A stretch of DNA of 64,000 nt from positions 186,001-250,000 of the forward strand of contig JAHCID010000002.1 of NCBI GenBank assembly GCA_026129405.1. Reading direction: 5' to 3'. The translations under genes were made by a program, and so were the position numbers. Shown piece after piece: positions 23,392 to 30,921 of the stretch. Numbering within the stretch: position 1 is the stretch's first letter; the number at the start of each line of letters is the position of its first letter. The notes under the pieces were generated by a model, which was given only the letters and a program-made list of their open reading frames with translations, did not search any database and was not told where the DNA came from. This DNA comes from a bacterium (GTDB taxonomy: Bacteria > Desulfobacterota > Binatia > DP-6).

Positions 23392-24852
23392 TCAGTAGGA
23401 GACCTGGAACCGCATCAGGAACACGTCCTCGTGGTTGCGGTCGTCCTTGCCGAACGTGACCTCCTCGTTGAACTCGGTGCGCTCCCAGTTGGCCTGCACC
23501 TTGAAGTTCTTGTTCAGGTACCAGTTGACGCCGAGGCCGTAGTTCGCGGCCCGCTGCGCCGACTGGCCGTTCTTCGCGAAGCCCTTGTCGAAGAGCTCCG
23601 GATCGACCTCGGTGATGCCGCCGCGGGCCGCGAGCTCGAAGGCGCCCCAGCGTCCGTTCCACGGATCGAACGGATTGATCGGGGTCACCATCTTGTAGCT
23701 CGCGTCCTCGCCGGTCAGGACGTACGAGGCCTGCGTGAACCAGCCGCTGTTCGTGAAGGTTCCCTCGGTGCTGGTGCCCGCCTTGGTGTCGTCGAGGCGC
23801 AGGCGCTGCGTCGACTGGATCCACTCACCCATGAGGCCGAACGGGCCCCAGAAGTAGTAGCCCTGCGGCGAGATGCGGGTGCGCTCGCCGTCGCCGAACA
23901 CCGACACGTTGCTCGACGTGGCGTAGCGGAACCACGTGGAGCGGCCCGGCGTGCGCAGGCGGAAGGGGCTGGCGCTCGACGAGTCGTCCTTGACGTCGCC
24001 GAAGGTGGTGGCGAAGCCGACGCCGAAGCCCTTCGCCCAGCTCCAGTCCGTGTTGCGGAACGGCTGCGCCCAGATGCGCGCGGCGCCTTCCTTGTCGGAC
24101 GTGGTGTCGCCGTCGGAATTGCCGCCGTCGACGGTGCCGTTGAAGGCGCCGACCTGCCAGAGCAGGGCCTCGTCCCACAGCGTGCCCGACAGCTGGAAGC
24201 CGACGTCACGGTTCGGGGCGAGGCCGTTCGCGATCGAGCGCTCGATGAAGAGCAGCTCGGAGCCGCCCTCGAGGCGCTCGAGGCTCAGCGGTACCTTGAA
24301 CTTCCCGGCCCGGAACGCCGCCCAGGGCTTGAAGTAGTTGACGTCCATGTAGCCGTCCTGGAGCGTCACCTGCCCGTCGCCGAAGTCCGGCATGATGCGG
24401 AAGTCGAAGTACTTGTAGACGGTGCCTTCGAAGATCGGACGGACGCGACGCAGGTAGAACGAGTCCGTGCCCGTGTCGCCCCCTTCGAGCGGGAACACAC
24501 GGGCGTCCGTCTGGATGTAGCCGCGGAACTTCAGCTTGAAGTCGCCGCTGGGTGACTCGAGGAAGAAGCCGTCCTTCCACCCCGCGAGCACCTTCTGCTT
24601 GCGCAGCTTCTCGTCGACGATCGCCTCGACCTGAGGCTTATCGACGGGTACTCCCTCCTCCCCCTCCGACGCCGAGGCCTTGTCGAGCCCCTGCTTCTGG
24701 ATGATCGCTTCGAGGCGCTCGATGCGATCGAGCAGCTCCTCGCGCGTTGGTTCGCGCCTGGCGAAGGCGTCGCCCGCGAAGGCGGGTAGCGCCAGCAGCG
24801 CCGCGAGGACCGTGGCGCTGCGCCACCGGTGTCCTCTCGACCGAGTGTCCAT
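23392..24852 (-). CDS. phosphate-selective porin OprO/OprP family protein
   Basis: 486 residues: signal peptide (to about 31), a short coiled coil (REELLDRIERLEAIIQKQGL, about 37-58) typical of these trimeric porins, then a 16-strand barrel (GDFKLKFRGYIQTDARVF, FDFRIMPDFGDGQVTLQDGY, FRAGKFKVPLSLERLEGGSE) ending in aromatic VSY. Despite the family name, substrates vary among anions. GGGAGGA precedes the ATG at 24852. Its place between sulfate and sulfonate transporter genes makes passage of sulfur oxyanions across the outer membrane plausible; that is inference. Confidence 0.87.
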   Translation of the reverse strand: MDTRSRGHRWRSATVLAALLALPAFAGDAFARREPTREELLDRIERLEAIIQKQGLDKASASEGEEGVPVDKPQVEAIVDEKLRKQKVLAGWKDGFFLESPSGDFKLKFRGYIQTDARVFPLEGGDTGTDSFYLRRVRPIFEGTVYKYFDFRIMPDFGDGQVTLQDGYMDVNYFKPWAAFRAGKFKVPLSLERLEGGSELLFIERSIANGLAPNRDVGFQLSGTLWDEALLWQVGAFNGTVDGGNSDGDTTSDKEGAARIWAQPFRNTDWSWAKGFGVGFATTFGDVKDDSSSASPFRLRTPGRSTWFRYATSSNVSVFGDGERTRISPQGYYFWGPFGLMGEWIQSTQRLRLDDTKAGTSTEGTFTNSGWFTQASYVLTGEDASYKMVTPINPFDPWNGRWGAFELAARGGITEVDPELFDKGFAKNGQSAQRAANYGLGVNWYLNKNFKVQANWERTEFNEEVTFGKDDRNHEDVFLMRFQVSY

Positions 24853-24916
24853 GACCGTTCCTCCCAAGGATTGGCATTGGCGTGCCTCCGGTGGACCGGT
24901 CAGCGGCGCTCAGGTG

Positions 24917-24997
24917 TCAGCGCATTGGCCTCCCGCAGTCGGGTGAGCCCTGGACGCACGGCGACGCGTGCGTCCAGCACAGCTTGTCATCAATCAT
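24917..24997 (-). CDS. candidate 26-residue peptide with three evenly spaced Cys
   Basis: A short ORF starts at ATG 24997 inside the last codons of the acyl-carrier-like gene and ends 64 bases before the porin start. Its three Cys residues are at positions 7, 14 and 21 (LCWTHASPCVQGSPDC). A perfect 10-bp hairpin lies inside it (24951-24976). The overlap of its start with the upstream stop would allow coupled translation. It may be a second regulatory peptide or chance; no homologue is known to me. Confidence 0.25.
   Translation of the reverse strand: MIDDKLCWTHASPCVQGSPDCGRPMR
24951..24976 (-). terminator. hairpin between the acyl-carrier-like gene and the porin gene
   Basis: TGGACGCACG / CGTGCGTCCA, a perfect 10-bp stem with a 6-base loop, 14 bases after the upstream stop codon. 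No T-run; it could be a partial terminator separating the sulfate operon from the porin gene. Confidence 0.4.
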
Positions 24998-25565
24998 AGC
25001 AACATCCAGGCCAGTCGCGGTCCGTCGCGCGGCGGAGACGCACGACGATTCCGCGATCGGCGAGGGGCTCGAACCGCAACGCGAGGTGTCCGAAGGCCTC
25101 GGCCGGCGTTCGCGGCGCGAGGAGCACGCGCACGTAGGTGCCGCGGCCGAGGCGCCGCGCGTCGGCGAGGATCGTCTCGAGCGCGTAGGGTGTGAGGCGC
25201 AGCGTGCGGGTGATCGCGCCGCCGCCGTGGGGTGTCGAGATCGTGACCCGGGCCAGGGGCGCCGACACGCTCTCCGGTACCTCGGTCGGCCCGGCGGCGA
25301 CCGTGACCAGCGCCTCGACGAGCTCGCCGCAGGTTCGCACGCGGTCGAGGAGCGCGAGCGGAACGTCGATCCCGAGTGCGGCTTCGAGCGCGATGCCGAC
25401 GCCGGCGAGGTCGAGCGAGTCCGCGGCGAGGTCGTCGTGGAGCGAGACCTCGGGTGCGAGCGCCGCGGGGCGAACACCGAGCTCGTCGGCGAGCACGCGG
25501 CGGATCGTCTCGGCGATCTGCTCGCGGCGCGGGGCCGTCGCGGTGGGCGAATGGGCGGTCGACAT
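24990..25565 (-). CDS. acyl-carrier-like protein with extra C-terminal domain
   Basis: 191 residues. Residues about 13-90 form a carrier-protein four-helix bundle (IAETIRRVLADELGV, LHDDLAADSLDLAGVGIALE), with Ser50 in the DSL motif as the phosphopantetheine site. Residues about 100-190 form a second, beta-rich domain I do not recognise (ARVTISTPHGGGAITRTLRL, TYVRVLLAPRTPAEAFGHLA), ending PGCCYD. The two-domain build and its place between regulator 2 and the porin in a sulfur cluster are unusual. Possible jobs include carrying a thioacyl intermediate or binding a partner protein; neither is shown. Confidence 0.62.
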   Translation of the reverse strand: MSTAHSPTATAPRREQIAETIRRVLADELGVRPAALAPEVSLHDDLAADSLDLAGVGIALEAALGIDVPLALLDRVRTCGELVEALVTVAAGPTEVPESVSAPLARVTISTPHGGGAITRTLRLTPYALETILADARRLGRGTYVRVLLAPRTPAEAFGHLALRFEPLADRGIVVRLRRATDRDWPGCCYD

Positions 25566-25596
25566 GGCGAGGTTTCCTTCCGGCGATGCGCCGGGG

Positions 25597-26289
25597 TCAG
25601 GGCCTCCCGCCGTCGGGTCGGCGCGCGGCGTGCGACGCGTAGGCCATGACGCAATGGACTACCGTCTCCGCCGCCGTCGGGTTGTGATACGTGTGCGGCC
25701 GGTCCGCTTGGAAGAAGACGGCGTCGCCGGCCTCGAGACGCGCCATGGCGTCGTCGGCGTGCAGGATGAGCCCGCCGCGCAGGACGACGAGGTGCTCGAC
25801 CGTGCCCGGCGCGTGGGGCTCGGCGGCTTCGACGGCGCCCGGCCGGAACGCGAGCTCGTAGAGCTCGGGCACGAGGCCGGGCGGCGAGAGCAGGCGCGAG
25901 CGCAGATCGCCCGTGCCCGAGATCACCGTGCGGCCCTCGCGGGCGCGCTGCACGCGGAAGAAGACCGCGCCTTCCTGCTGGACGAGCAGGTGCGCGAAAG
26001 GGACGCCGAGCGCCGTCGCGAGCGACCAGACGACGCGCAGGCTCGGCACCGCGCGGCCGTCTTCGAGGCGCGCGAGGATGTCCGGCGCGACGCCGCTGCG
26101 GGCCGCGAGCGCGTCGAGGGCGAGCCCGATGCGCTCGCGCTCGCGGCGCACGTTCGTGCCGATGGCCGCGCCGAGCGCGCGGCCTTCGGGCCCGTCGGGC
26201 CCGCGCAGGGCGTCCCTGCGCTCGGCGACGATCGCCGCGCGGACGACGTCGTCCGGCGTGGCGTCGCCTCTGTGGGAGCGGTCGGTCAC
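25597..26289 (-). CDS. HTH-cupin transcription regulator (paralogue 2)
   Basis: 230 residues: XRE-type HTH (NVRRERERIGLALDALAARS, about 47-100) and C-terminal cupin (HAPGTVEHLVVLRGGLILHA, EAGDAVFFQADRPHTYHN). It aligns end to end with the protein at 18478-19167. Its GTG start overlaps the stop of the YezD-like gene by four bases, so it belongs to the sulfate-transport operon and may feed back on it by sensing a sulfur metabolite. The ligand is unknown. Confidence 0.82.
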   Translation of the reverse strand: MTDRSHRGDATPDDVVRAAIVAERRDALRGPDGPEGRALGAAIGTNVRRERERIGLALDALAARSGVAPDILARLEDGRAVPSLRVVWSLATALGVPFAHLLVQQEGAVFFRVQRAREGRTVISGTGDLRSRLLSPPGLVPELYELAFRPGAVEAAEPHAPGTVEHLVVLRGGLILHADDAMARLEAGDAVFFQADRPHTYHNPTAAETVVHCVMAYASHAARRPDGGRP

Positions 26290-26489
26290 CCGGCCGTTCC
26301 CTTCCGTCGCTCGACCCGGAACTTCTCGAGTCGTTCCACCTGCACCACCACCCCGTCCTGCACGATGGCCGTCACCGACCCGTAGCGCAGGCCGCGCAGC
26401 GCGGCGTGGATGCGATCGAGCGTCTCACGGACACGCTCGATGGTCTGACCGCCCCCGTCCACGGCGTCGTGGTCCCGTGCGTCGTCCAT
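26286..26489 (-). CDS. YezD-like small protein (DUF2292)
   Basis: 67 residues ending GSVTAIVQDGVVVQVERLEK, the diagnostic DUF2292/YezD core. AAGGAG lies 6-7 bases before ATG 26489; a second ATG at 26519 overlaps the cysA stop and lacks this. Members of the family sit beside sulfur-assimilation genes in other bacteria, as here behind cysA. No biochemical role is established. Confidence 0.82.
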   Translation of the reverse strand: MDDARDHDAVDGGGQTIERVRETLDRIHAALRGLRYGSVTAIVQDGVVVQVERLEKFRVERRKGTAG

Positions 26490-26515: not shown

Positions 26516-27574
26516 TCATATCGAGTACTCCTGCACGAAGAGCCGCACCTGGCGGGGCGCGACGTGCACGACGTCGCCCGTCTGGATGCGCAGCTCCGCG
26601 TACTTCTCCCAGCTGACGTCGATGTTCAGCACGACGCCGAAGGCCTCCGAGTAGACGCGCACCTTGACGACCGGGCGCGCCGGATTGACGTGCACCACCT
26701 TCGCCTCGAGGCTCGGGCGGCCGTTCTTCGACTTCAGGATCTCGAGCTCGTGGGAGCGGATGAAGGCGGTGGCCGCGCGCTCCTCGGAGCCGTCGTATTC
26801 CGGTGCCGCGATGTCGAGCGATCCGAGCTTCGCGCGGCCGTCCTGTACGTGCCCGTGGAACACGTTCACGTTGCCGAGGAAGTCCATGACGAAGGGGTTC
26901 GCCGGGTTCTCGAAGATCTCCGCCGGCGTGCCGACCTGCTCGATGCGCCCCTGGCTCATGATGACGACGCGGTCGGAGACCTCGAAGGCCTCCTCCTGGT
27001 CGTGCGTGACGAAGACGCTGGTCACGTGCAGCTCGTCGTGGAGCCGCCGCAGCCACTGCCGCAGCTCCTGGCGGACCTTCGCGTCGAGCGCGCCGAAGGG
27101 CTCGTCGAGGAGCAGCACCTTCGGCTCGGCCGCGAGGGCGCGGGCGAGCGCGACGCGCTGGCGCTGGCCGCCGGACAGCTGCGACGGCAGCGAGCGCTCG
27201 AGCCCCTCGAGCTGCACCAGCCGCAGCAGCTCGTGCACGCGCTGGCGGATGTGCTCCTTGCCCGCCTTGCGCACCTTCAGCCCGAACGCGACGTTGTCGA
27301 ACACGTTCATGTGGCGGAAGAGCGCGTAGTGCTGGAAGACGAAGCCGACGTTGCGCTCGCGCACCGCCGCCGAGGTGACGTCCTCCTCGTGGTAGTAGAC
27401 GCTGCCCTCGTCGGCGACCTCGAGCCCGGAGATGATGCGCAGCAGGGTGGTCTTGCCCGAGCCCGACGGCCCCAGCAGCGCGAGCAGCGAGCCGCCGGGC
27501 ACCTCGAGGCTGACGTCGTCGAGGGCGAGGAAGTTGCCGAACCGTTTCGTGACGTTCTTCACCGTGATGCTCAT
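26516..27574 (-). CDS. cysA: sulfate/thiosulfate ABC transporter ATPase
   Basis: 352 residues. Walker [10 protein letters not shown] (about 34-42), signature LSGGQRQR (about 133-140), Walker B VLLLDEP and FVTHDQEEA are present, followed by a C-terminal OB/TOBE regulatory part (about 240-352) usual for CysA. It overlaps cysW by four bases and is followed by the YezD-like gene. It energises sulfate or thiosulfate uptake with CysT, CysW and the binding protein encoded upstream. Confidence 0.93.
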
Positions 27575-28482
27575 GCTTCACCTCCGGCGGTCTGGAGCCG
27601 CTTGGCCTCTTCGAGCTCGCGTCGCGTCTTCCACTCGAGGACGCTCTTCAGGAGCAGCGTGACGACGGCGAGCATGGCCAGGACCGACGCGACGGCGAAG
27701 GCACCCGGCATGTTGTATTCCTGGAACAGCTTCTCGACCCGCAGCGGCATCGTGTCGGTGCCGCCGGTGATGCGTCCGGAGACGACGTAGACGGCGCCGA
27801 ACTCGCCCATCGCACGGGCGTTGCAGAGGATGAGGCCGTAGAGCAGGCCCCACTTGATGTTCGGCAACGTGATCAGCCGGAACATCTGCCAGCCGCGGGC
27901 ACCGAGGCTCACGGCCGCCACCTCCTCCTCCGAGCCGAGCGCTTCCATCAGCGGGATGAGCTCGCGGGCGATGACGGGGAAGGTGACGAAGCAGGTCGCG
28001 ATGATGAGCCCGGGCAGCGCGAAGATGATCTTGATGTCGTGTTCGCGCAGCCAGGGCCCGAGATAGCCGTGCAGGCCGAAGAGCAGGACCAGCAGGAGGC
28101 CGACCACCACGGGGGAGACGGTGAACGGCAGGTCGATGAGCGCGGTGACGAACGCGCGCCCCGGGAAGCGGAAGCGCGCGATGCCCCAGGCCGCCGCGAG
28201 GCCGAAGATCAGGTTCAGGAGGACGGCGACCGGCGCGACGATGAGCGTGAGCTTCATCGCGTGGAGCGTGTCGTGGTCGCGGGCGATGTTCTGCCAGTAG
28301 ACCGCCGCGCCGTCCGCGAACGCCTCGGTGAAGACGTTCACGAGCGGGACGACGATCAGCAGCACGATGACGCTGACGGCTGCCAGGGTGAGCGTCCAGC
28401 GGACCCAGGTCGGATCCTCGTGGGCGCGAAGAGGGACGGGCGTGGCGCCCGCGACGACCTTGCCTGCCGTGTGGTCAGACAT
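27571..28482 (-). CDS. cysW: sulfate ABC transporter permease
   Basis: 303 residues with six membrane segments and the CysW landmarks [38 protein letters not shown]-type loop, and the C-terminal [20 protein letters not shown]. It pairs with CysT to form the membrane channel. The start lies inside the cysT stop region (8-base overlap) and the stop overlaps cysA, so the three are one translational unit. Confidence 0.93.
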
Positions 28483-29302
28483 GATGGCGCGAGCTCCAGC
28501 GCTCGAGGGCGTTGATGCCGAAGAGCGTGACGAACGAGATCACGAGCAGCACGACCGCGATCGCCGTCGCCTCGTTGTACTGGAAGGCCTCCAGCTGGGC
28601 GACGACGAGAACCGGCGCGATCTCCGTCTGGTAGGGCATGTTGCCCGAGATGAAGACGACCGAGCCGTACTCGCCGAGCCCGCGGGCGAAGGCGAGCGCG
28701 AAGCCCGTGATCACCGCGGGGAGGATCGACGGGAAGATCACCCGCCGGAAGGTCTGGAAGCGATCCGCCCCCAGGCAGGCCGAGGCTTCCTCGACGTCCC
28801 GCTCGAGCCCCTGCAGCACGGGCTCGAGCGTGCGGACGACGAAGGGGAAGCCGATGAAGGTGAGGACGAGGACGATGCCCAGCACCGAGTACGAGCCCTG
28901 GATGCCGAGGGGCACCAGGAACTGCCCGTACCAGCCGTTCTCGACGTAGAGGTTGGAGTAGACGAGACCGGCGACGGCGGTGGGCAGCGCGAACGGGAAG
29001 TCGACCAGCGAGTCGAGGAGACGCTTGAGCGGGAATTCGTATCGCACGAGCACCCACGCGACGAGCAGGCCGAGGACCACGTTCACCGCGGCGGACGCGA
29101 ACGATACGAACAGCGTCAGCCGGTAGGCCGCGATCGCGCGTTCGGTCGAGACCGCGGCCCAGAATTGCTCCAAGGACAGGTTGGTGGCTCGGATGAACCC
29201 GGCCGCGATCGGGATCAACACGAGCAAGGTCAGGTAGGTCATCATGTACCCCAGGCTCAGTCCGAACCCGGGGAGCACGCGGCGGTTGACGTCGGTTGCC
29301 AT
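28475..29302 (-). CDS. cysT: sulfate ABC transporter permease
   Basis: 275 residues. The CysT pattern LPGFGLSLGYMMTYLTLLVL at the start, DFPFALPTAVAGLVYSNLY and ALAFARGLGEYGSVVFISGN in the EAA-loop region are all present, with six membrane helices. It is encoded 37 bases after the binding protein and overlaps cysW. Confidence 0.93.
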   Translation of the reverse strand: MATDVNRRVLPGFGLSLGYMMTYLTLLVLIPIAAGFIRATNLSLEQFWAAVSTERAIAAYRLTLFVSFASAAVNVVLGLLVAWVLVRYEFPLKRLLDSLVDFPFALPTAVAGLVYSNLYVENGWYGQFLVPLGIQGSYSVLGIVLVLTFIGFPFVVRTLEPVLQGLERDVEEASACLGADRFQTFRRVIFPSILPAVITGFALAFARGLGEYGSVVFISGNMPYQTEIAPVLVVAQLEAFQYNEATAIAVVLLVISFVTLFGINALERWSSRHHV

Positions 29303-29339: not shown

Positions 29340-30341
29340 TCACTTCTTCGGCTTGTAGATCTGGTCGAAGACCTTGCCGTCGCCGAAATACTTGTCGTAG
29401 GCGTCGTCCCAGTTCTTCGCGACCTGGGTCACGTCGAAGAGCTTCATGTCCGGGAACGTGGCGCGGTTCGCTTCGAGGATTCCCGGGTCGGTAGGGCGGT
29501 AGAAGTGCTTGGCGATGATCGCCTGGCCCTCGGGGGTGTAGAGGAACTCGAGGTAGCTCTTGGCGGCGGTCGTCGTGCCCTTGCGCTCCGTGTTCTTGGA
29601 AACGATCGCGAGCGGCGGCTCGGCGAGGAAGCTCGCCGACGGGTAGACGATCTCGACCTGCCCCTTGGCCTCCTCGACCTCGAGGTGCGCCTCGTTCTCC
29701 CACGTGAGGTGCACGTCGCCGATGCGCTTCTGCACGAAGGTCACCGTCGAGCCGCGGGCCGCGAGGTCGAGGACCGGCACCTGCTCGTAGAGCTTCGTGA
29801 CGAAGTCGAGCGCCTCCTTGTCGGAGCCGCCGTGCAGCTTCACGTAGCCCCACGCGGCGAGGAAGGAGAGCTTGCCGTTGCCCGAGGTCTTCGGGTTCGG
29901 GGTGATGATCTGGACGTCCGGCTTGATGATGTCCGGCCAGTCCTTGATGCCCTTCGGGTTGCCCTTGCGGACCACGAAGACGATCGTCGAGGTGTAGGCG
30001 GTCGAGTTGTTCGGGAGGTCCTTCTCCCAGCCGAGCGGCATGAGCCCGGCCTTGGCGATGGCGTTGGTGTCCGGCCACATCGCGAGCGTCGCGACGTCAG
30101 CCTCGAGGCCGTCGACGACCGCCCGGGCCTGGCTGCCGGATCCGCCGTGCGACATGCGCACCGTGGGTGCGGCGCCGCCATTCTGCGCCGCCCACTTCGG
30201 GGCCCAGGCGGCATTGAGCGCCTTCCAGAGCTCCCGCGTCGGGTCGTACGACACGTTCAGGAGCTCCTGTGCGGAGGCGGTGAGCGGGGCCATCGCGAGG
30301 AAGGCGGTGGCGATGAGGGCCAACAGGGTACTGGGGCGCAT
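29340..30341 (-). CDS. sbp: periplasmic sulfate-binding protein
   Basis: 333 residues: signal peptide (to ASAQ, about 25), then the Sbp/CysP pattern LLNVSYDPTRELWKALNAAW, VRMSHGGSGSQARAVVDGLE (the oxyanion-binding Ser-Gly-Gly-Ser loop), LPNNSTAYTSTIVFVVRKGN and ITPNPKTSGNGKLSFLAAWG. It delivers sulfate (or thiosulfate) to CysTWA. AGGAG precedes the ATG. Upstream lie a small protein and a cysteine-type attenuator, which should set its expression. Confidence 0.93.
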   Translation of the reverse strand: MRPSTLLALIATAFLAMAPLTASAQELLNVSYDPTRELWKALNAAWAPKWAAQNGGAAPTVRMSHGGSGSQARAVVDGLEADVATLAMWPDTNAIAKAGLMPLGWEKDLPNNSTAYTSTIVFVVRKGNPKGIKDWPDIIKPDVQIITPNPKTSGNGKLSFLAAWGYVKLHGGSDKEALDFVTKLYEQVPVLDLAARGSTVTFVQKRIGDVHLTWENEAHLEVEEAKGQVEIVYPSASFLAEPPLAIVSKNTERKGTTTAAKSYLEFLYTPEGQAIIAKHFYRPTDPGILEANRATFPDMKLFDVTQVAKNWDDAYDKYFGDGKVFDQIYKPKK

Positions 30342-30458: not shown

Positions 30459-30668
30459 CTAGGCCGCCAGGAGGGTCGCGGAGCCTCGACAAAGCCAGCT
30501 CCGCTCCGGGGCGAAGGGCAGGGGAGGCAGCGTGGCGGTCGCCTGCATGGCGCGGGCGGCGTCGCGGAGCGCGCGGGCGCTCTGGTTGCACGAGCGGAGG
30601 TGTCGCTTCAGGCGGAGCCAGCGCCGCTCGAGGTCGGTCAGGGGCTTCGGGGTCGTGGGCTGCTGCAT
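30459..30668 (-). CDS. small hypothetical protein first in the sulfate operon
   Basis: 69 residues from ATG 30668 with AAGGA eight bases upstream. A central basic helix LERRWLRLKRHLRSCNQSAR contains one Cys and a second Cys (WLCRGS) near the end. It lies after the attenuator terminator and 117 bases before sbp, so it is made only on read-through. No membrane segment or known domain. It could be a regulator, a chaperone-like protein, or simply a second leader. Confidence 0.45.
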   Translation of the reverse strand: MQQPTTPKPLTDLERRWLRLKRHLRSCNQSARALRDAARAMQATATLPPLPFAPERSWLCRGSATLLAA

Positions 30669-30732: not shown

Positions 30733-30767
30733 AAAAAAGGCCCGGGGGGTCAGGAACCTCCCAGGCC
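30733..30767 (-). terminator. attenuator terminator of the sulfate operon
   Basis: On the minus strand GGCCTGGG (30767-30760) pairs with CCCGGGCC (30746-30739), followed by TTTTTT. It begins 25 bases after the leader-peptide stop codon and lies before all structural genes. Its 24-base stretch 30762-30739 is almost fully complementary to leader segment 30844-30828, giving a rival antiterminator. Confidence 0.75.
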
Positions 30768-30792
30768 GTGGTCCGCGTTGCGTTCGATCCGT

Positions 30793-30879
30793 TTAGGACA
30801 CGGCGACGAGCGCGCAGCGACCGGCGAGGGAGTTCCCCCGGGCCGAGATACAGCAACAGCAAGTCGCTGCGGGCAGCAT
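30793..30879 (-). CDS. cysteine leader peptide (28 codons, four consecutive Cys)
   Basis: From ATG 30879 the codons read MLPAATCCCCISARGNSLAG and on to a TAA at 30793. Codons 7-10 are TGC TGT TGC TGT. Just before the run, 30871-30863 can pair with 30821-30813 (9 bp), enclosing the Cys codons. Just after the run, GGCCCGGGGGAACTCCC (30844-30828) is complementary to the distal part of the downstream terminator. A ribosome waiting at codon 7 would cover the first stem and leave that segment free. This is the classical design of amino-acid attenuation, here responding to cysteinyl-tRNA supply, ahead of a sulfate transporter. Confidence 0.78.
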   Translation of the reverse strand: MLPAATCCCCISARGNSLAGRCALVAVS

Positions 30880-30892
30880 CGTCACGGGTGCG

Positions 30893-30921
30893 TGTATGCC
30901 GGCGCTCCGCGTCGAAGTCAA
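30893..30921 (-). promoter_or_regulatory. promoter of the sulfate operon leader
   Basis: Minus strand: TTGACT (30921-30916), 17 bases, CATACA (30898-30893), placing the transcript start 6-8 bases before the leader ATG. Directly upstream is the perfect palindrome AGAAATTTCT (30921-30930) and then CGATATCG (30931-30938), possible regulator sites shared with the divergent cytochrome gene. Confidence 0.5.

Follow-up and report, generated by a model that had tools for sequence, protein, structure and literature searches.

In the window (the whole stretch of DNA analysed, 64,000 nucleotides), a sulfate-transport operon, sbp-cysT-cysW-cysA, is located on the minus strand behind a short leader with four consecutive Cys codons (Table 1). 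An earlier note on this DNA had placed these genes behind the leader, and the Pfam and NCBIfam matches agree with it. The closest named relatives of the window Sbp come from MAGs labelled 'Deltaproteobacteria' and 'Candidatus Binatia', which points to the class Binatia (Binatota) as the origin of the window. The sbp gene starts about 400 nt past the terminator of the leader. The small ORF lying between the two has no Pfam match, and the sole homologue found (61%) belongs to the near relative L002. Beyond cysA and the DUF2292 gene, the minus strand at 23392-26289 carries genes for an XRE/cupin regulator (25597-26289), a phosphopantetheine-binding protein (24990-25565) and a Porin_O_P protein (23392-24867).

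Table 1. Features of the leader and of the operon behind it (positions in the window)
Feature	Position	Strand	Basis or remark
Promoter TTGACT (30921-30916), 17 nt, CATACA (30898-30893)	30893-30921	minus	direct reading
Leader peptide ORF VTMLPAATCCCCISARGNSLAGRCALVAVS*, GTG start at the predicted RNA 5' end	30793-30885	minus	direct reading and 25 Binatia leaders
9-bp stem, 5' arm CGCAGCGAC	30863-30871	minus	direct reading; predicted in local leader fold
Putative regulatory codons TGC TGT TGC TGT (Cys x4)	30850-30861	minus	direct reading
Segment A(+B) GGCCCGGGGG-AA-CTCCC, putative antiterminator arm	30828-30844	minus	covariation with 30749-30739; stall scan, recoding control
9-bp stem, 3' arm GTCGCTGCG	30813-30821	minus	direct reading; predicted in local leader fold
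Terminator 5' arm A' GGCCTGGGAGG	30757-30767	minus	direct reading
Terminator 3' arm B' CCCCCCGGGCC, partner of both A' (terminator) and A (antiterminator)	30739-30749	minus	
U-tract of the intrinsic terminator, T6	30733-30738	minus	direct reading
Small ORF, 69 aa, between terminator and sbp	30459-30668	minus	with apparent ribosome-binding site
sbp, sulfate-binding protein	29340-30341	minus	NCBIfam TIGR00971, PRK10752
cysT, sulfate ABC permease	28475-29302	minus	Pfam BPD_transp_1 and operon position
cysW, sulfate ABC permease	27571-28482	minus	Pfam BPD_transp_1 and operon position
cysA, sulfate ABC ATPase	26516-27574	minus	Pfam ABC_tran, CysA_C_terminal
DUF2292 (OscA-like) small protein gene	26286-26489	minus	Pfam PF10055

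Direct reading of the minus strand recovered every leader element that had been described before, each in its place. The ORF of 28 codons runs from the ATG at 30879-30877 to the stop codon TAA at 30795-30793. An in-frame GTG at 30885, two codons 5' of this ATG, is the better-placed start, and the ORF is 28-30 codons long depending on the start chosen. The segment following the Cys codons (30844-30828) reads GGCCCGGGGGAACTCCC and is also able to fold on itself. The GC hairpin of the terminator, at -22 kcal/mol in the window, lies about 25 nt past the ORF stop. At gathering scores, no Rfam family was matched in the window. The two 9-bp arms on either side of the Cys codons pair perfectly in the window. 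Among the relatives this stem is, by eye, good in L001 and L016 and poor or shifted elsewhere, and it was rejected as a key conserved element.

In all of the 25 leaders described below, 36-42 nt (36-40 in most) separate the -35 box from the first start codon, and at this spacing the start codon is only a few bases from where transcription would be expected to begin. A Shine-Dalgarno-like motif is missing in 24 of the 25. Judging from this spacing, the leader peptide is probably leaderless, with the RNA opening directly at its GTG or ATG.

Spread of the leader and the genes behind it

The earlier note had proposed that the leader be compared in related genomes for conserved Cys codons and compensatory changes. 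A covariance model built from 18 leaders as the seed detected 25 full-length leaders (E <1e-9) in 20 of 148 Binatia genomes, belonging to seven families; the window's own genome has one leader (E 3.9e-26, the next match being at 0.1). A nucleotide profile built without the family of the window matched positions 30883-30729 with E 8.8e-17. The Cys run, segment A, the terminator and the promoter are all kept over the seven Binatia families, the -35 box as TTGAC in the aligned relatives. Between two and five Cys codons were found at the corresponding place in 25 of 25 leaders, where exchanges of TGC and TGT are synonymous, and compensatory changes are present in the proposed antiterminator. In the leaders, the place of the terminator is likewise taken by a strong GC hairpin with a T-run behind it. 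Short ORFs in which 3-5 Cys codons follow one another are found before sbp in related Binatia, accompanied by the post-Cys segment and the terminator, and close variants have one break in the run (CCRC, CWCC, CTCC, CRC). The homology of the leader over 20 genomes, together with the match obtained when the family was left out, confirms at the level of sequence comparison that the observation is beyond chance.

When 395 genomes of the phylum were scanned, full-length leader matches were obtained solely within the class Binatia. The similar sbp genes of Planctomycetes and other non-Binatia relatives lack this leader; a few isolated CCC ORFs occur among the non-Binatia sbp relatives, with the surrounding leader features missing. 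The same operon lacking the Cys run or the pairing had been regarded beforehand as the case that would speak against an attenuator. It is absent in the window's own family and among the nearest sbp relatives, whereas some distant Binatia have an sbp gene with no Cys leader upstream. About 10 such Binatia loci were found, the Sbp of most being clearly different, and six form a separate, well-supported clade in the sbp tree.

Nineteen of the 25 leaders precede sbp(-cysTWA). Among the leaders outside the model seed, one stands before sbp, one before cysT, two before cysK-cysE, and one before a DUF3034 gene with metY and a metX-metW fusion. That the leader recurs before genes for cysteine synthase, serine acetyltransferase and O-acetylhomoserine sulfhydrylase argues more strongly than anything else for cysteine as the signal, and it suggests that one leader module was apparently placed before several genes of one pathway. 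Two further leaders outside the seed, one before an Alginate_exp porin gene and one before a gene for a phosphopantetheine-binding (acyl-carrier-like) protein, count against the attenuator reading; under that reading, the two genes are candidates for a sulfur response. In genome G003 the phosphopantetheine-binding protein gene is directly behind Cys leader L153, so that the gene of this kind downstream of the operon in the window may join the sulfur response as well. The Cys leader L151 (G119:C156:8805-8970, minus strand) lies before an outer-membrane porin of the Alginate_exp type that is split over two reading frames, perhaps a sulfur-compound porin.

Leaders of another kind were seen in passing. 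L154 (G009:C2:374349-374496, minus strand) and L164 (G048:C70:173546-173644, minus strand) each contain a short ORF rich in aromatic codons (MNPKTSIFFWYFSLW... and MRKSPVFVVWYFIF..., respectively) and a terminator, and aroG (DAHP synthase) follows closely. The identity of aroG comes from an NCBIfam match in L154 and from a protein 74% identical in L164. These two are candidate aromatic-amino-acid attenuators in Binatia; an aroG query against the window's own genome gave no match.

Pairing of the proposed antiterminator, and ribosome position

The segment right after the Cys run had been said to pair with the terminator. This pairing is conserved, and the covarying partner of segment A is the terminator 3' arm B'. 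In an alignment of 21 leaders (four leaders of family f6 with a displaced segment were excluded), A pairs with B' in 89.5% of the cells, 14 cells are changed on both sides, and a covariation score as high was reached in 0 of 500 shuffles. The pair formed by columns 17 and 127 is G-C in 10 leaders, A-U in 10 and G-U in 1, and is broken in none of the 21. A mismatch in A' breaks the terminator's own pair at this place (115-127) in 9 of the 21. Further co-changes of A and B' are C-G at 15-129 in L149, A-U at 14-130 in L012, and A-U at 18-126 in L036 and L153. In the peptide, the column 17 change exchanges Gly and Glu, and the L012 change at column 14 replaces Arg with Gln; read in frame, these changes of residue indicate that the RNA pairing, not the peptide, is what is kept. 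The A:B' pairing covaries on its own, apart from the terminator pairing. It counts against this evidence that the G-C state of column 17 needs about three changes on the sbp tree, the independent events being modest in number. The consensus fold of the leaders holds the terminator alone, and when the RNA duplex energy was compared with that of synonymous recodings it was significant in 7 of the 25 leaders.

Within family f6 (L007, L013, L032 and L151), the segment that could pair with the terminator 3' arm is displaced downstream and, as read from the sequences, sits behind a small ACGAG/CTCGT hairpin. The -35 box of this family is TTGCG.

These conserved elements bear on other explanations of the locus. 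Translational attenuation of the mycobacterial type, in which a stalled ribosome would free the ribosome-binding site of the next gene and the terminator would be incidental or part of another unit, would share with the Binatia leaders, if these are leaderless as is probable, the architecture of a leaderless poly-Cys ORF, to the extent that this is described where Canestrari 2020 is cited in PMC9031893 and PMC9094748. It seems improbable, because the GC hairpin and T-run are conserved at one place in the leaders, A covaries with a terminator arm and not with a ribosome-binding site, and the start of sbp in the window is as far from the terminator as given above. A metabolite-binding riboswitch or a protein-binding leader making no use of the short ORF might also present a conserved RNA with alternative structures. 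However, besides the lack of an Rfam match, the conservation resides in the Cys codons (with synonymous changes), in A and in the terminator, with no additional conserved aptamer-like core, and the consensus fold contains nothing beyond the terminator; such a leader is very unlikely. Rho-dependent control, for which the intrinsic terminator leaves no need, or a terminator that acts constitutively behind a chance Cys run is hardly credible, since TGY runs, by a rough estimate no great rarity given the genome size, are here kept over seven families and reused before cysK-cysE and metY-metX.

With regard to the attenuator itself, the effect of ribosome position was analysed by masking the ribosome footprint at successive codons, folding the RNA at equilibrium and reading the terminator probability. 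The earlier note had reasoned that stalling at the Cys run would leave the segment behind it free for antitermination, and in the window leader the scan places the predicted switch at this run. The terminator probability was 0 with the ribosome at the first and second Cys codons, 0.13 at the third and 0.76 at the fourth, and about 1.0 over the next codons. When the window ORF was recoded synonymously and the ribosome was held at the first Cys codon, the mean probability was 0.93, and 0 of 60 recodings were as low as the real sequence. A comparable step at the Cys run was seen in about half of the leaders. Three results of the folding count against the model. First, in about 10 leaders (e.g. 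L003, L007, L013, L016, L148 and L150a) the terminator wins at equilibrium for any ribosome position, and the attenuator model therefore needs kinetics there. Secondly, the window leader favours the antiterminator at equilibrium when no ribosome is present or when the ribosome is on the stop codon, which means that default termination must come from timing or from local folding. Thirdly, the opening costs of A showed no consistent difference between the free leader and that with a ribosome at the first Cys codon. Accessibility of A alone as the switch is for this last reason unsupported, and it is masking of A by the moving ribosome that the stall scan supports. One possibility, which we infer, is that a late-loading ribosome on the leaderless 5' end crosses A as the polymerase makes the terminator.

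Proposed mechanism and comparison with known attenuators

The following sequence of events may be proposed. Transcription would begin at the leader start codon or a few bases before it, and a ribosome would, as the promoter spacing suggests, load on the RNA 5' end unaided by a Shine-Dalgarno sequence. With Cys-tRNA in good supply, the ribosome would move past the Cys run and cover A while the polymerase makes the terminator; with A covered, A' would pair with B' and transcription would stop. When Cys-tRNA is scarce, the ribosome would be held on the first Cys codons with its footprint ending just before A. The free A could then pair with B', and the CTCCC behind A with A', so that no terminator would form and sbp-cysTWA would be transcribed.

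Taken together, we consider it likely, with a probability of about 0.88, that a Cys-responsive, ribosome-mediated transcription attenuator controls the sulfate-uptake operon. The genes for sulfate uptake and for making cysteine would very probably be transcribed only under cysteine shortage. More tentatively, and at somewhat less than even chance, there may be a cysteine 'ribulon' in Binatia, in which one arrangement, a leaderless poly-Cys ORF joined to an intrinsic terminator, recurs at several sulfur operons and the ribosome on the regulatory codons gates the access of a segment within the ORF to the terminator 3' arm, the decision being set by the delay of leaderless loading and not by a wait at the stop codon. 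The attenuator would provide a concrete and testable rule for the control of sulfur uptake and cysteine synthesis in an uncultured group.

In the enterobacterial trp, his and leu attenuators, the antiterminator takes the terminator 5' arm, and a ribosome that reads through waits at the stop codon, masking the partner. The Binatia leader resembles them in a leader peptide rich in the amino acid that would be sensed, in mutually exclusive terminator and antiterminator, and in the U-tract. Unlike them, its covarying partner is the terminator 3' arm, and the segment to be masked lies inside the ORF right after the regulatory codons.

Poly-Cys ORFs of mycobacteria are said, from the work of Canestrari et al. 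2020, to act on the translation of the next gene. The Binatia leaders are like the mycobacterial ones in having consecutive Cys codons in a short ORF before sulfur or cysteine operons, and probably also in the place of this ORF at or near the RNA 5' end, mostly with no Shine-Dalgarno-like motif. According to the passages of PMC9031893 and PMC9094748 that cite Canestrari 2020, the mycobacterial leaderless ORFs respond to cysteine; they had been predicted earlier, and their leaders show no conserved terminators (PMC1262725). Unlike this translational arrangement, the Binatia leaders have a conserved intrinsic terminator and a covarying antiterminator, which points to transcription. The uORFC-8-2 motif before cysS of Rhodobacterales is a predicted Cys ribosome-mediated transcription attenuator (PMC8632094) and, compared by description, has tandem Cys codons and an intrinsic terminator as well. 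In that motif the Cys codons number two and usually occupy positions 14-15, the gene under its control encodes Cys-tRNA synthetase, and it is restricted to Rhodobacterales (PMC8632094), whereas the Binatia leaders have 2-5 Cys codons nearer the start and are associated with sulfate uptake and cysteine synthesis, that of the window standing before sbp and not cysS. No description of a Cys leader in Binatota was found in the literature searched. The finding suggests that attenuation by Cys codons in a leaderless short ORF is not confined to actinobacteria and is, in this case, coupled to the termination of transcription. The Binatia leader combines features of the mycobacterial and the Rhodobacterales Cys attenuators; the lineage is new for a switch of this known kind, and some parts of the leader are unusual.
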